The notes: a model not told the origin generated them from the letters alone. A stretch of DNA of 64,000 nucleotides from Bacillota bacterium (GCA_021799275.1 JAJZAT010000006.1:1-64000), one strand, 5' to 3'; shown: positions 20,747 to 31,212, numbered from the stretch's first letter. Made by a program: numbers and translations.

Positions 20747-21985
20747 ATGAGGCTGCGTGAAGAGGCCCTCGAGTATCACCGCGTCCACCATGGCAAGATC
20801 GAGGTCACGAGCCGCGTGCCGCTGCATGACCAGCAGGACCTGTCGCTCGCGTACACGCCAGGCGTGGCAGAGCCGTGCAAGCAGATCCAGATCGAGCCGG
20901 AGTCCATCTTCGACTACACGAACCGCGGCAACCTCGTGGCCATCCTGACGGACGGCTCCGCGGTGCTCGGACTTGGCGACATCGGTCCCGGCGCCGGCCT
21001 TCCTGTCATGGAGGGCAAGGCGGTCCTGTTCAAGGCGTTCGGCGGCGTCGACGCATTCCCGGTGCTCGTCAACACGCAGGACGTCGACAAGATCGTCGAG
21101 GTCATGAAGCTGCTCGAGCCGGGCTTCGGCGGCGTCAACGTCGAGGACGTGTCGGCTCCTCGCTGCTTCGAGCTTGAGCGCCGGCTCAAGGAGGAACTCG
21201 ACATCCCCGTGTTCCACGACGACCAGCATGGTACCGCCATCGTGGTCGGAGCGGCGTTCCTCAACGCCCTGCGCGTCGTGCAGAAGAAGATCGAGGACGT
21301 GCGCGTCGTCTTCAACGGCGCCGGCGCCTCCGGCATCATGGTCTCCCGGATGCTGCGCGACCTCGGCGTCAAGGACATCATCCTCTGCGACCGTCAGGGG
21401 ACCATCTATCAGGGGCGGCCGGGCCTCAACCCCGAGAAGGAGGTTGTGGCCAAGGAGACAAACCCGCGTGGCGTGAAGGGCAGCCTGGCCGACGCGCTCG
21501 TCGGGGCGGACGCCTTCGTTGGTCTCTCCTCCGCAGGGGCCGTCACGATGGACATGCTCCGTCCGATGAACAAGGATGGTATCGTGTTCGCCCTCGCGAA
21601 CCCGGTTCCGGAGATCTGGCCAGTCCAGGCCGTCGAGGTGGGCGCGGCGGTGGTCGGCACAGGCCGCTCCGACTTCGCAAACCAGATCAACAACGTGCTC
21701 GGCTTCCCCGGCGTCTTCCGCGGCGCCCTGGACGTCCGGGCGCGCCAAATCACGGAAGGCATGAAGCAGGCGGCGGCACGGGCCATCGCCGGCCTCATCA
21801 CCGACCAGGAGCTCCGGCCCGACTACGTGATCCCGGCACCGCTCGACCGGCGCGTCGCACCGGCGGTGGCACGGGCCGTGGCCGAGCAGGCGATCAAGGA
21901 AGGGCTCGCGCGGCGTGTCCTCGACCCGGCCGAAGTTGAGCAGCACTGTATCGAGCTGACCCGCGAGAAGGAAGGCCAAGCGTAG
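20747..21985 (+). CDS. NAD(P)-dependent malic enzyme
   Basis: LAYTPGVAEPCKQI, VFHDDQHGTAIVV, FALANPVPEIWP. Confidence 0.96.
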   Translation: MRLREEALEYHRVHHGKIEVTSRVPLHDQQDLSLAYTPGVAEPCKQIQIEPESIFDYTNRGNLVAILTDGSAVLGLGDIGPGAGLPVMEGKAVLFKAFGGVDAFPVLVNTQDVDKIVEVMKLLEPGFGGVNVEDVSAPRCFELERRLKEELDIPVFHDDQHGTAIVVGAAFLNALRVVQKKIEDVRVVFNGAGASGIMVSRMLRDLGVKDIILCDRQGTIYQGRPGLNPEKEVVAKETNPRGVKGSLADALVGADAFVGLSSAGAVTMDMLRPMNKDGIVFALANPVPEIWPVQAVEVGAAVVGTGRSDFANQINNVLGFPGVFRGALDVRARQITEGMKQAAARAIAGLITDQELRPDYVIPAPLDRRVAPAVARAVAEQAIKEGLARRVLDPAEVEQHCIELTREKEGQA

Positions 21986-24040: not shown

Positions 24041-25063
24041 TCACCAAACGCGACCGCCCGCCGAGGCATCGGCGAAGAGGTGGGTGGCGGCATAGAGGCT
24101 CGGCTCTCCACCCGTGTGCAGGAACAGGACGTTTTCCTCCGGGCGGATGACGCCCTGCCTTGCGAGGTCGATCAGACCGGCCATGGCCTTGCCTGTGTAG
24201 GTCGGATCGAGCAGGATGCCTTCCGTGCGCGCCAGGAGCTTGACCGCTTCGATCATCTCCTGTGTGGGCTGGCCATAACCCGGCCCGATGTAGGCGTCGT
24301 AGCAGGTGACGGCGTCTGGCCTGACCTGGACGTCGACGCCAAGGTGGGCTGCGGTCTCCGCCGAGATCCGCTCGATGTCGGCCAGCAACTGCTCGTGTGG
24401 ATGCAGAACGCTGATGGCCGTGACGGGCACGTCGAGGTGGAGGACCTCAAGGCCGAGCAGGGTGCCGGCCAGGGTCCCGGCGCTGCCGCCCGCGACCACG
24501 ATGCGGTCCATGGATAGCCCGTGGTCGAAGCACTGCCCCATGATCTCCGTCGCGCAGGCGACGTAGCCGAGAGCGCCGACGGCGTTCGATCCGCCCATCG
24601 GAATGACGTAGGGCCTGTGTCCCGCGGCCACCGCCTCCGTTGCGGCCGCGTCGAGTTCGGTCGGCCAGTCCACCTCATCGGGGACGATCTTGATCCTCTC
24701 GGCCCCGAGAAGATGGTAGAGAAAGATGTTGCCGTTCCCATCTGGCCGGTACGCGCCGGGCGACGGCTCGGATAGGACGAGCCAGCACTTGAGACCTTCC
24801 TTGACGGCCGCCGCCAAGGTCAGGCGGCAATGGTTCGACTGGATGCCGCCGCAGGTGATCAGCGTGTCCGCACCTTGGGCAAGAGCGTCCGCCACCAGAA
24901 ACTCCAGCTTGCGCGTCTTGTTGCCGCCGCCCGTGAGGCCCAGAAGGTCGTCGCGCTTGATGTAAACGTGCGGCCCGCCGAGTGCCTCGGAGAAACGCGG
25001 CATCCGCTCGATGGGCGTCGGACCGGCCGTGTACCGCCGCCGCGGAAACTTCGCCAGATTCAT
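24041..25063 (-). CDS. D-cysteine desulfhydrase / ACC deaminase family PLP enzyme
   Basis: IKRDDLLGLTGGGNKTRKLEFLVADAL, GGIQSNHCRLTLAAA, VAGGSAGTLAGTLLG. Confidence 0.92.
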   Translation of the reverse strand: MNLAKFPRRRYTAGPTPIERMPRFSEALGGPHVYIKRDDLLGLTGGGNKTRKLEFLVADALAQGADTLITCGGIQSNHCRLTLAAAVKEGLKCWLVLSEPSPGAYRPDGNGNIFLYHLLGAERIKIVPDEVDWPTELDAAATEAVAAGHRPYVIPMGGSNAVGALGYVACATEIMGQCFDHGLSMDRIVVAGGSAGTLAGTLLGLEVLHLDVPVTAISVLHPHEQLLADIERISAETAAHLGVDVQVRPDAVTCYDAYIGPGYGQPTQEMIEAVKLLARTEGILLDPTYTGKAMAGLIDLARQGVIRPEENVLFLHTGGEPSLYAATHLFADASAGGRVW

Positions 25064-26981: not shown

Positions 26982-27860
26982 ATGCCGGCAGAAATTCTAG
27001 CTCCACTGATCAGCCCGCGCGATGCCAAGGGACGGCTCGATCTCGACGGACTGGCCGCGAACGTCGCGAGACTGGGACCCGATGTGGACGGCTTCCTCGT
27101 TCTCGGGTCATCGGGCGAGTACGTCTATCTTTCGGAGCGGGAGCGCATGGACGCCGTCCGTACGGTGATGGAGGGCGCGGGCGACCGCACGGTATTCGTG
27201 CAGGTCGGGTCGGAGACCACGGAGTCGAGCGCGGCCTTGGCACACGAGGCGATGCAGTATGGCGCCACCGGCCTCCTGGCCGTCACGCCCCATTACTACA
27301 CGCCGCAGCTCAAGGGGCCCGCTCTGCAGGCCTACTATAGGACGATCGGCGCCATCGGGCCGACCTACCTCTACCACATCCCTTCCTACACGGGAATGAC
27401 GCTCGACGTGCGGGAGATCCTCGACATCGCCGCGATTCCCGGGGTCGTCGGCATGAAAGACTCGACGGGCAACCTCGCGCTGCTCACGGAGATTCTCGCG
27501 AGCTGCCCTGCGGGCTTCCGCTACTATGTCGGATCGGGTGGGGCGCTCCTCGCCGCGATGGCCCATGGCGCCGTCGGGACGATAGCGGCACTTGCCAACC
27601 TTGTGCCGGCACAGATGCGCCAGGCCGTCTCGCTGTTCGAAAGAGGGCGGATGGCCGAGGCGGCCGAGGCACAGCGGCCGCTTGCGCGGCTGAACGCCCT
27701 CGTCACGCGCCGGTACGGCATCCCTGGGCTCAAGTACGCGGCCGGCAGGCTCGGCTTTGCGGCGGGCGAGCCCGTGCCGCCGCTCCAGCCCGTGACGTCC
27801 GCGGCCGCCGCCGAAATCGACGCGGCGATCGCCGACCTGAGGGTGCCTGCGGCGGGATGA
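26982..27860 (+). CDS. Dihydrodipicolinate synthase (DapA/NanA) family lyase
   Basis: GFLVLGSSGEYVYLSERER, YLYHIPSYTG, GMKDSTGN (Schiff-base Lys). Confidence 0.92.
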   Translation: MPAEILAPLISPRDAKGRLDLDGLAANVARLGPDVDGFLVLGSSGEYVYLSERERMDAVRTVMEGAGDRTVFVQVGSETTESSAALAHEAMQYGATGLLAVTPHYYTPQLKGPALQAYYRTIGAIGPTYLYHIPSYTGMTLDVREILDIAAIPGVVGMKDSTGNLALLTEILASCPAGFRYYVGSGGALLAAMAHGAVGTIAALANLVPAQMRQAVSLFERGRMAEAAEAQRPLARLNALVTRRYGIPGLKYAAGRLGFAAGEPVPPLQPVTSAAAAEIDAAIADLRVPAAG

Positions 27861-28993
27861 ACCGGCGTGCACTGCTGAGCCTAAGCTTCGCCCACTTCAC
27901 CGCCGACCTGAACTCGGGCGCCGTTCCGGCTCTCCTGCCGCTCGCGACGACGCTCTTCTCCCTGAACTACAGCGCCGCAGCGCTCGTGATCCTGGTGTCC
28001 AATCTCACCTCGTCCGTGATCCAGCCGCTGTTCGGTGTGCTTGCGGACAGGCGTCCGATGCCTTGGCTGATGCCGTTCGCGCTCGCCCTGGCGGCCATCG
28101 GTACCGCCGCCTACTCTCTCGCAGGCGGCTACGGGTCGTTCGTGGCGCTGGTGGCGCTCACGGGCGTCGGCGTGGCGGCATTCCATCCCGTCGGTGCGTC
28201 GGGAGCCTACTTTGCGGCTGGAGCGAAGCGCGCCTCCGGTATGAGCATCTTCTCCGTCGGGGGCAATGTCGGGTTCGCGTTCGGCCCGCTGCTTGCGGGT
28301 CTGGCCACCCACGCCTTCGGCATGACGGGGGTGCTCTGGTTCCTGGTGCCGGGGGCCGCGGCGGTCATTGTGCTGAGGTTCTTCGCGCCGCGCGAGACCC
28401 AGGTGCGACCTGCCCACGAGATGAAGACGGCGCCGGTGCCGTGGCTGCTGCTCTCGATCCTGGTGCTGGTCGTGGTGTTGCGCAGCACGGCCCAGTACGG
28501 CGTACTGACCTTCTACCCGCTCTACCTGACGCACCTGCACCGGCTGTCGCCCAGCCTCTCAGGGGCCATCCTCTTCTTCTTCCTGATCATGGGTGCCTTT
28601 GGCACCATGGTCGGCGGTCCGCTGTCGGACCGCTTCGGCCGCAGGAGCCTCATGCTCTGGAGCTGGGTCGCGACGACGCCGCTCCTCTACCTGCTGCCAC
28701 GGTTGCCCGGCGTCTGGCAGTTCGTGGACCTGGGCGTCCTGGGGTTCGCGATCGTCGCGACCTTCAGCACGACGGTCGTCCTGGCGCAGGAAATGCTGCC
28801 CGGCCGCCAGGCGGTGGCCTCGTCGCTGACAATCGGCCTCGCGATCGGCCTTGGCGGCGTCGTGATGCTCTGGCTGGGTCAGCTCGCGGACGTGGCCGGC
28901 GTTCGAGAGGTCCTTGGCCTGCTCTGGATCGCCGGTGTCGCCGGCTTCCTCGGATCCCTCCTGCTGCCTCAGCAGGTGCGGATCGCCGACTAG
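27857..28993 (+). CDS. MFS transporter (fosmidomycin-resistance-like)
   Basis: FAHFTADLNSGAVPALLPL, QPLFGVLADR, FHPVGASGAYFA, SVGGNVGFAFGP; ATGA overlap with upstream gene. Confidence 0.88.
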   Translation: MNRRALLSLSFAHFTADLNSGAVPALLPLATTLFSLNYSAAALVILVSNLTSSVIQPLFGVLADRRPMPWLMPFALALAAIGTAAYSLAGGYGSFVALVALTGVGVAAFHPVGASGAYFAAGAKRASGMSIFSVGGNVGFAFGPLLAGLATHAFGMTGVLWFLVPGAAAVIVLRFFAPRETQVRPAHEMKTAPVPWLLLSILVLVVVLRSTAQYGVLTFYPLYLTHLHRLSPSLSGAILFFFLIMGAFGTMVGGPLSDRFGRRSLMLWSWVATTPLLYLLPRLPGVWQFVDLGVLGFAIVATFSTTVVLAQEMLPGRQAVASSLTIGLAIGLGGVVMLWLGQLADVAGVREVLGLLWIAGVAGFLGSLLLPQQVRIAD

Positions 28994-29078
28994 CGGCGCA
29001 GGACACCTGCAGCGCTCTGTCGTATTCGGACCGCCAACGTGGCAGGCGCCTTGACCGCGCCGCAAAGGGGGGCCCACG

Positions 29079-30146
29079 TTGGATGTCATGGTGATGGTCG
29101 GGACGGCCAAAGGGCTGTTCCGCTTCAGGTCCCGCGATCGCAGAGGTTGGCGGATGGAAGGGCCGGACTTTCCGCAGACGCCCTGCTACACCGCGGTTTT
29201 GGACCCGCGCAGCGGCGTTCTCCTGGCTGGCGTGAACTCCGAGTTCTACGGTCCGTCCATCCGGCGGTCGCGGGATTTCGGGGCGACCTGGGACGCAGGC
29301 GTTGTACCTGCGTACGGGCCGGACGACGAGGAGCAGGTGACACGGGTCTGGGCCATCGCGCCTGCGGGCGCGGATGAGCCCGGGACGATGTACGCGGGCG
29401 TGGAGGCGAGCGGACTCTTCCGCTCGGACGACGGCGGCGACAGCTGGAGCGAAGTCCAGGCTCTGCGCCGTCACCCGACGCGCGAGCTCTGGGGTCCGGG
29501 GTACGGCGGCAAATGCCTGCACACGGTGCTTCCCGTGGGCCGCGACACCATCTACACGGCTTGCTCGGCCGGCGGCGCTTACCGGTCCACCGATCGCGGC
29601 GAGAGCTTCAGCCCGATCAACGCGGGGATCGAGGCGCGCTTCATGCCCGAGGGGCAGCGTTTCCCCGAAGCCGGCCAGTGCGTGCACAAACTCTCGAACT
29701 GCGCCGCCGAACCGCAGCGCATCTGGATGCAGAACCACGGTGGCGTGTACCGCACGGACGACGGCGGCGACACCTGGCACGAGGTCGGGAGGACTCTGCC
29801 GGGCGACTTCGGCTTCCCGGTGCTGGCACACCCGAGCGACCCCGACACCGCCTACGTCATTCCTTTGCAGGCGGATGGGCAGCGCTGGGCCAAGAATGCG
29901 CTCGGGGTCTGGTCCACGGAGGACGCGGGTGCCACCTGGCGCCCGATCACGGAGGGCCTGCCGGCCGTCTCCTTCGCGAGCGTGCTGCGCGACGGCCTGG
30001 ACCATGACGGCCAGGACCCGCTCGGCCTCTATTTCGGCACGACTTCGGGCAGCGTCTACGCGTCCGCCGACGGCGGCCGGGGCTGGCAGGAGATCGCGGC
30101 GCACCTGCCACGCATCTTCTCGGTGCGCGCGGCCACCTTGGCATGA
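29079..30146 (+). CDS. Cytoplasmic BNR/Asp-box (WD40/YVTN-like) repeat protein
   Basis: Repeated RSxDxGxTW-like boxes (RSDDGGDSWSE, YRSTDRGESFS, YRTDDGGDTWHE, WSTEDAGATWR, YASADGGRGWQE); no signal peptide. Confidence 0.88.
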   Translation: MDVMVMVGTAKGLFRFRSRDRRGWRMEGPDFPQTPCYTAVLDPRSGVLLAGVNSEFYGPSIRRSRDFGATWDAGVVPAYGPDDEEQVTRVWAIAPAGADEPGTMYAGVEASGLFRSDDGGDSWSEVQALRRHPTRELWGPGYGGKCLHTVLPVGRDTIYTACSAGGAYRSTDRGESFSPINAGIEARFMPEGQRFPEAGQCVHKLSNCAAEPQRIWMQNHGGVYRTDDGGDTWHEVGRTLPGDFGFPVLAHPSDPDTAYVIPLQADGQRWAKNALGVWSTEDAGATWRPITEGLPAVSFASVLRDGLDHDGQDPLGLYFGTTSGSVYASADGGRGWQEIAAHLPRIFSVRAATLA

Positions 30147-30418
30147 TCACGCTGCACCTGCCTGACGACCTGGCACGGGAGATCGGCATCGCCCCTCGGT
30201 CGGGGCATGCGGCAAAGGACAGTCTGGGGGAACTCCTGTCGGCGGTCGACGTCGGGAGTAGTGGGCTGCTGCCGAGGATCCTCGAGGCCGACGGGCGGCT
30301 GCGGCCGCACCTGAATCTCTTCATCGGAGAGAACAGGCTCGCGAGGGAGACGGCCATGGCGGCTCCAGTGCGCGACGGCGACGAAGTCTGGCTCTTGCGC
30401 GCGATCTCCGGCGGTTGA
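30143..30418 (+). CDS. MoaD/ThiS-family ubiquitin-like protein
   Basis: ~91 aa, beta-grasp pattern ending VRDGDEVWLLRAISGG (C-terminal GG); ATGA overlap with BNR gene. Confidence 0.82.
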   Translation: MITLHLPDDLAREIGIAPRSGHAAKDSLGELLSAVDVGSSGLLPRILEADGRLRPHLNLFIGENRLARETAMAAPVRDGDEVWLLRAISGG

Positions 30419-30434
30419 GACTAAGGTGGCGCTT

Positions 30435-30462
30435 GGGCCGCCTGCCATCGGGCGGGCGGCCC
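30435..30462 (+). terminator. Hairpin after the MoaD-like gene
   Basis: GGGCCGCC...GGCGGCCC. Confidence 0.6.
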
Positions 30463-30586
30463 AACTCCTTGTCCGAGGGCAGGGTGGCTGCTGCTCGCGG
30501 GCGGCCCCAGCAAGAGCCCATCGCCACCTGCGCACCTGCGGGGCCGCCGCGCTCCCACAGTAGGGCCCACCAGGAGGGAGGACACC

Positions 30587-30742
30587 ATGGCCCGATCCGA
30601 CACCGCCCTCGATCGCGTGATTCTTGCGGCCACGGACAACGATCGGGCGGCGCGCTTCTACGCTGCGGTACTGCGATCGGCGGGCGAGCGCGACCCGTCC
30701 GGCCTGCCGATCTGCCGCCGCGTCTATTCGACGGTCGTGTAG
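30587..30742 (+). CDS. 51-aa ORF with strong RBS (possible gene remnant)
   Basis: CCAGGAGGGAGGACACC-ATG; MARSDTALDRVILAATDNDRAARFYAAVLRSAGERDPSGLPICRRVYSTVV. Confidence 0.4.
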   Translation: MARSDTALDRVILAATDNDRAARFYAAVLRSAGERDPSGLPICRRVYSTVV

Positions 30743-31212
30743 CGCGAGCGGAAGTAGACAAGCGGCTGGGCGGCCCTCGGTCCGTCCAGATGCAGGACCC
30801 GCCCGAGGAAGAGGGTGTGGTCCTGCGCCACGACCTCGTCCGTCACCTCGCATTCGAGGTGGCCGATGGCGCCGTCCAGCCACGGCAGGCCGCCAGGGCT
30901 TGGCTGCCAGGCGATGCCTTGGAGCGCCTGCCCCGGGTCCTTGAAGCGCTGGGCGAAATGGACCGAAACGTCCTGCTGCGTCGCCGCCAGGAAGGAGACA
31001 GCGAAGCGCTTCGAGGCGCTGATGATCGCGTGGGAGTCGTTCTCCCGGCCGATCGAGACGAGGACGAGCGGCGGCTCGAGCGAAACGGAGAGGAAGGCGT
31101 TGGCCGTCATGCCGTGCGGACCTTGCGGCCCGGCGCAGCTGATGACGGAAACACCGGTAGCCCAGCTGCCCATGAGCTGATGGAACTCTTGCGGCAAGGA
31201 CGTAGACGGCAC
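30724..31212 (-). CDS. Flavin reductase family protein
   Basis: MGSWATGVSVISCAGPQGPHGMTANAFLSVSLEPPLVLVSI. Confidence 0.93.
   Translation of the reverse strand: MPSTSLPQEFHQLMGSWATGVSVISCAGPQGPHGMTANAFLSVSLEPPLVLVSIGRENDSHAIISASKRFAVSFLAATQQDVSVHFAQRFKDPGQALQGIAWQPSPGGLPWLDGAIGHLECEVTDEVVAQDHTLFLGRVLHLDGPRAAQPLVYFRSRYTTVE

Follow-up and report, generated by a model that had tools for sequence, protein, structure and literature searches.

We analyzed a gene run in a 64,000-nucleotide stretch of DNA from a Bacillota bacterium (GCA_021799275.1 JAJZAT010000006.1:1-64000), here called the window. An earlier note, made from the sequence alone, had described four co-directional genes, two ATGA overlaps and a hairpin after the run. 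On re-reading the window we confirmed four open reading frames, all on the plus strand, and found the overlaps and the hairpin as well. The features are as follows.

26982..27860, + strand: lyase of the DHDPS/NAL family (DHDPS 6.4e-51); a same-genus neighbour, outside the conserved unit
27857..28993, + strand: MFS transporter (MFS_1 6.2e-32); a same-genus neighbour only
29079..30146, + strand: Asp-box (BNR) beta-propeller protein, 355 aa, TTG start (Pfam Sortilin/BNR 1.3e-12)
30143..30418, + strand: Ubl of the sulfur-carrier type, 91 aa, C-terminal RAISGG (NCBIfam SAMP1 3e-7)
30143..30146, + strand: ATGA stop/start overlap of the BNR and Ubl genes; a 4-base overlap is present in 20 of 23 Bacillota pairs
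30433..30464, no strand: inverted repeat of 14 bp after the Ubl gene, without a T run

The lyase and MFS genes overlap exactly at 27857-27860 and the BNR and Ubl genes exactly at 30143-30146. Between the MFS and BNR genes there is a gap of 85 bases and no overlap. The BNR gene starts with TTG at 29079, with AAGGGGGG approximately 6 bases upstream, and the next in-frame ATG is at 29088. A single 4-base gene overlap is common in bacteria. The retention of the BNR/Ubl overlap, as ATGA or GTGA, in the 20 Bacillota pairs goes beyond chance, and this overlap is likely to provide translational coupling. The 72-nt stretch with the hairpin has a fold energy of -42.7 kcal/mol (z -2.98). Since the T run is absent, the hairpin is not a canonical intrinsic terminator; it is possible that it marks the transcript end or stabilises the mRNA.

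Conservation of the BNR-Ubl pair

We surveyed the genome context of the pair. In 61 related genomes we recovered 12 loci with the propeller beside a Ubl match; the Ubl gene lay directly downstream in every one of them, and 11 have the 4-base overlap. A propeller-only search of a named collection (Sulfobacillus, Alicyclobacillus, Ferroacidibacillus and MAGs; overlapping in part with the genomes of the survey above) gave the complete pair in 23 of 26 Bacillota loci, and a 24th pair was cut by a contig end. The propeller was found in 3 of 300 sampled Bacillota genomes, so the pair is rare in this phylum. Most of the named Bacillota matches come from genera which we take to be acid-, metal- or heat-associated. 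One genome (G004) carries two separate pairs, L011 and L026.

Among the actinomycete genomes sampled, 94 of 198 encoded the propeller. In at least 18 of these 94 the Ubl gene lay directly downstream on the same strand, as read from coordinates; Streptomyces and most other actinomycetes carry the propeller without a linked Ubl. Four Pseudomonadota plasmids (P. aeruginosa, Cupriavidus metallidurans, Burkholderia cenocepacia and Mitsuaria) have the pair in the reversed order, Ubl then BNR. The genes that flank the pair vary from locus to locus. A pair kept across phyla, in two gene orders and in many surroundings is hard to explain other than by a shared function. Therefore the adjacency in Bacillota, Actinomycetota and Pseudomonadota supports a functional partnership between the BNR protein and the Ubl, as the earlier note had proposed.

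The lyase and MFS genes were found beside the pair in the window's own genus only. For this reason we rejected the reading of all four genes as one system, and the lyase and MFS, which the earlier note had counted in, do not belong to the conserved unit.

The BNR and Ubl gene trees agreed in their main groups and were clearly discordant at one place, the Ubl of L035, a locus from the same assembly bin as G004. In comparison with the window, L035 is 99% identical in the MFS C-terminus, 94% in the BNR protein and 58-59% in the Ubl, and its Ubl groups with that of L036. Either the locus recombined at the BNR/Ubl junction or the assembly introduced a join there. Given 94% identity in one protein and 58-59% in the other, co-adaptation at the interface may be less than tight.

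Actinomycete genomes with the propeller more often encoded at least two Ubls (83 of 94, and 31 of 104 among the others). We dropped this co-occurrence as evidence, because in the two genomes that we inspected, a Streptomyces and a Streptacidiphilus, the Ubl genes lie next to other genes, which we identified from their sequences as a CysM/Mec-type cluster and a threonine-synthase-like gene. In Rhodobacter sp. CZR27 (L123) the propeller gene is divergent from the ergothioneine genes egtB/egtD, and the fetched flanks contained no Ubl match.

Fold and invariant residues of the propeller

The BNR protein matched PDB entry 3b7f at 1e-60 in a sequence search and at 1.8e-86 with a profile. In the PDB search true sialidase chains matched it at E 0.3 or worse. 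The model of its L105 homologue matched 3b7f in Foldseek (E 8.6e-36, TM 0.91), and by way of this homologue the BNR protein is predicted to be an Asp-box propeller of the 3b7f fold. Entry 3b7f (Reut_B4987 of Ralstonia eutropha) comes from structural genomics, and its function is listed as not known (PMC2716378). We rejected the sialidase (GH33) reading, given E 0.3 or worse against 1e-60 for 3b7f. The label 'exo-alpha-sialidase' derives from the shared Asp-box fold only, and the propeller gene is mislabelled in databases as a sugar-cutting enzyme.

This result bears on a reading of the four genes as one catabolic operon, in which a BNR glycosidase would act together with a DapA/NanA-type lyase and a transporter, and the Ubl would be incidental. 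The common direction of the genes, the two ATGA overlaps, the sialidase labels of BNR proteins and a weak match of the N-acetylneuraminate lyase model to the lyase are what such an operon would predict. However, in other genera the pair has no lyase and MFS genes around it, and the lyase is under every NCBIfam equivalog cut-off (111 bits for N-acetylneuraminate lyase, NanA, vs the cut-off of 281). The propeller, moreover, is nearest to 3b7f, a protein without a listed function (PMC2716378), and distant from true sialidases. We consider such an operon highly improbable.

We observed 45 invariant columns among 13 propellers from three phyla. When Asp-box positions and glycine/tryptophan scaffold positions were set aside, the invariant polar residues were T9, K11, H148, S163, H203, Q218, H220, R225, H251, R269 and R304 (window numbering, from the TTG). 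According to the predicted secondary structure of the L105 protein, the loops that join the second strand to the third hold K11, S163, Q218 and H220, and H148, H203 and R304 fall where the inner strand starts or close by. In Asp-box propellers the Asp-boxes between strands three and four are at the bottom, and a survey of these proteins recommends the top face as the functional face (PMC2716378). Because the Asp-boxes mark the bottom, the B-C loops and inner-strand starts belong to the top face (PMC2716378). The non-Asp-box invariants K11, H148, S163, H203, Q218, H220 and R304 are thereby predicted to lie mainly on the top face, assigned by topology and not by coordinates. Two cysteines, C146 and C162, are invariant in the Bacillota propellers and not retained in Pseudomonadota.

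Titles of PDB entries include Ycf48 bound to a D1 peptide and DAIP with a C-terminal thermolysin fragment, thus Asp-box propellers can bind peptide tails. This makes the entry of a GG tail into the top face a reasonable model.

Family, fold and GG tail of the Ubl

The Ubl matched Pfam ThiS (PF02597) at E 0.041 and 14.9 bits, under the gathering cut-off of 22.5, and appears to be a distant relative of that family rather than a curated member. With the NCBIfam equivalog model of SAMP1 (NF041918) it scored 3e-7 and 30.8 bits, under the curated cut-off of 60, and the L105 Ubl reached 59.5 bits on the same model. PDB chain 3dwg_C, CysO, was matched at 9e-7 with the single sequence and at 1.2e-10 with a profile. 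The AF2 model (pLDDT 91.9, pTM 0.80) had a beta-grasp fold. In Foldseek the top match of this model was SAMP1 and the second 4n6e_B (TM 0.84); CysO was matched at TM 0.84-0.86 (0.86 for M. tuberculosis CysO), and MoaD was matched as well. We are confident in the predicted beta-grasp fold, nearest to SAMP1 and CysO, and the structure check upholds what had earlier been suggested of the small protein.

Residues R54, G90 and G91 were invariant across 24 Ubls of two phyla. The terminal GG is also kept in the Pseudomonadota Ubls, though the remaining sequence drifts to 22-30% identity. The Ubl beside the propeller in Nonomuraea gerenzanensis (L124:5069-5380) is without the terminal GG and ends in ...VYVLPALA. 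The Ubl of L014/L038 has seven to eight residues beyond SGG (GDRARPAS), and a protease would therefore be needed to expose its GG.

We considered whether the Ubl could be a non-catalytic small subunit which stabilises or closes a hydrolase or lyase propeller, with the GG as a relic and no sulfur moved. The constant adjacency and tight overlap of the genes imply equal dosage, which would suit a subunit, and so would the Nonomuraea Ubl without GG and the propellers without a linked Ubl. However, the GG is invariant in the 24 Ubls and is kept in Pseudomonadota at 22-30% identity, and in seven loci the operon also includes an E1-rhodanese gene. A subunit of this kind is distinctly unlikely.

At the window locus no PALP (cysM) gene was found next to the Ubl gene. 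The nearest PALP gene, at 24044-25063 on the minus strand and 2 kb from the lyase gene, encodes a PLP enzyme which scores barely above the cut-off of the NCBIfam model for D-cysteate sulfo-lyase CuyA (454.7 vs 450 bits). The closeness of CuyA-like sulfonate metabolism to a sulfur-carrier gene is possibly a coincidence. A flavin-reductase-like protein (PF01613 5e-44) is encoded at 30724-31212 on the minus strand, convergent with the Ubl gene.

E1-rhodanese and JAB genes

The earlier note had stated that no E1-like enzyme is encoded nearby. This holds for the 64-kb window, where the sole weak ThiF match (21278-21394) falls inside a malic-enzyme gene. It does not hold for the window's own genome and for seven Bacillota operons. 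In several Bacillota relatives ThiF and the Ubl were less than 400 bases apart on one contig. An E1 gene (ThiF plus rhodanese by Pfam) directly followed the Ubl gene in seven loci (L040, L042, L043, L045, L047, L053 and L057), and in L048 and L051 the BNR and E1 genes were found without a Ubl gene between them. In the sequences of the operon E1s we could read zinc CxxC motifs and the cysteine of the rhodanese loop (VVCAAGVRS).

In the own genome, contig C56 (L003:1210-2996) encodes an E1 whose N-terminal domain is SAMP1-like but has no GG and whose C-terminal domain is a rhodanese. It is followed by a JAB protease, the best NCBIfam match of which is desampylase. The matches of the E1, JAB and SAMP1 models are all under the NCBIfam equivalog cut-offs. 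Judged from these genes, a candidate cognate E1 for the Ubl would be encoded in the own genome (C56) and beside the Ubl in the seven loci of relatives. The MoeZR of mycobacteria is likewise an E1 that ends in a rhodanese domain; it forms the thiocarboxylate of CysO and acts on several Ubls (PMC3227635). The own genome also encodes a MoaD-MoaE fusion. A second, divergent ThiF-like protein (395 aa) is encoded between small genes on contig C7 (L004:1213-2400) and may belong to a ubiquitin-like defence system.

These genes also invite the view that the Ubl is a protein modifier, attached to lysines through its GG as in SAMPylation or urmylation, with the propeller as main target, receptor or target-selecting adaptor and the JAB protease as the enzyme that removes it. 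The nearest NCBIfam model and the top Foldseek match of the Ubl are both SAMP1, the own genome has a UbaA/MoeZ-like E1 together with the desampylase-like JAB, and the L014/L038 Ubl, with seven to eight residues after GG, would need a protease. However, the operon E1s carry rhodanese, which is a sulfur supply and is dispensable for conjugation as such, bacterial MoeZ-type E1s are known for thiocarboxylation (PMC3227635), and the E1, JAB and SAMP1 scores do not reach the equivalog cut-offs. We regard the modifier role as fairly unlikely.

Comparison with known systems

The closest parallel is the CysO-CysM-MoeZ system of M. tuberculosis, with which the pair shares a CysO-like Ubl (1.2e-10 to 3dwg_C, TM 0.86), an E1 with rhodanese, a Ubl gene beside the gene of a partner enzyme and a JAB protease in the genome. 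The partner here is an Asp-box propeller instead of a PLP cysteine synthase, and no CysM lies beside the pair. The SAMP1/UbaA/HvJAMM system of Haloferax volcanii offers the nearest curated model and solved fold (SAMP1), a UbaA-like E1 and a desampylase-like JAB. In contrast to it, the E1s here carry rhodanese and the scores are under the family cut-offs. The synthesis of 2-thiosugar by BexX-CysO in Amycolatopsis (4n6e) likewise joins a sulfur-carrier Ubl to a dedicated enzyme; BexX is a ThiG-like enzyme and not a propeller.

As for the propellers, 3b7f is homologous to the BNR protein (TM 0.91), and the sequence links to Ycf48, DAIP and sortilin are distant. None of these four is known to work with a Ubl.

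Ubl, E1-rhodanese and JAB also come together as sulfur-transfer modules outside the thiamine and Moco pathways in classes 4a-4e of the ThiS/MoaD neighbourhoods described by Iyer et al. 2006 (PMC1779556). That paper uses neither the word BNR nor the word propeller (PMC1779556). Within the literature searched, which was covered partially, no description of the BNR-Ubl pair was found, in line with the earlier view of an uncharacterised system. The Ubl and E1 belong to known sulfur-carrier modules; a propeller partner is named neither by Iyer et al. nor elsewhere in the literature searched.

Proposed mechanism

The BNR protein and the Ubl are probably an unstudied two-protein sulfur-handling system. 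By analogy with CysO and CysM, we give about even chances to a model in which the Ubl is thiocarboxylated by an E1-rhodanese and delivers sulfur to the propeller. A MoeZ/UbaA-type E1-rhodanese, encoded elsewhere in the genome and in the same operon in relatives, would adenylate the C-terminal glycine of the Ubl. Sulfur would then replace the AMP and give the thiocarboxylate. The Ubl would bind its dedicated partner propeller and its -SGG tail would enter the centre of the top face, lined by K11, H148, S163, H203, Q218, H220 and R304. The propeller would spend the sulfur on a small molecule or a protein, cf. CysM/CysO, MoaE/MoaD and ThiG/ThiS. From the observed pairing, folds, E1-rhodanese linkage, conserved GG tail and conserved residues we infer that the Ubl is thiocarboxylated, that its tail docks, and that sulfur chemistry takes place at the propeller. 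The rhodanese domain speaks for a Ubl that is loaded with sulfur, and the dedicated pairing of the genes speaks for delivery to the propeller.

Several observations count against sulfur delivery, namely the Nonomuraea Ubl without GG, the propellers without a linked Ubl, the BNR-E1 arrangement of L048 and L051, the discordance of L035, and the loss of C146 and C162 from the Pseudomonadota propellers. The L105 locus has a natural in-frame BNR-TGA-Ubl read-through chain, the model of which had a pTM of 0.78, with low confidence at the linker and the Ubl tail. The earlier note had proposed the BNR propeller as partner or target of the Ubl. Partnership stands, given the adjacency in three phyla, and an enzyme fed with sulfur, a docking partner and a modified target are alike compatible with the sequence.

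In more general terms, we suggest, tentatively and at somewhat less than even chances, that a Ubl carrier passes sulfur to a beta-propeller or switches it. Such a partner class is not described for any Ubl in the literature searched. It would be spread over Bacillota, Actinomycetota and Pseudomonadota (with one P. aeruginosa plasmid copy), hidden under the name 'exo-alpha-sialidase'. If this is true, a sialidase-annotated family present in approximately half of the 198 sampled actinomycete genomes is misnamed and belongs to sulfur or Ubl biology, and a beta-propeller joins the short list of enzymes which take sulfur from a Ubl. The suggestion is directly testable, since the tail could be loaded, the E1 and the partner are both named, and the residues for mutagenesis are few.

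In Streptomyces sp. CB01881 (L165) and Streptacidiphilus (L167) another Ubl gene is directly behind a threonine-synthase-like gene. From sequence reading, these two genes may represent a further pair of a Ubl and an enzyme.
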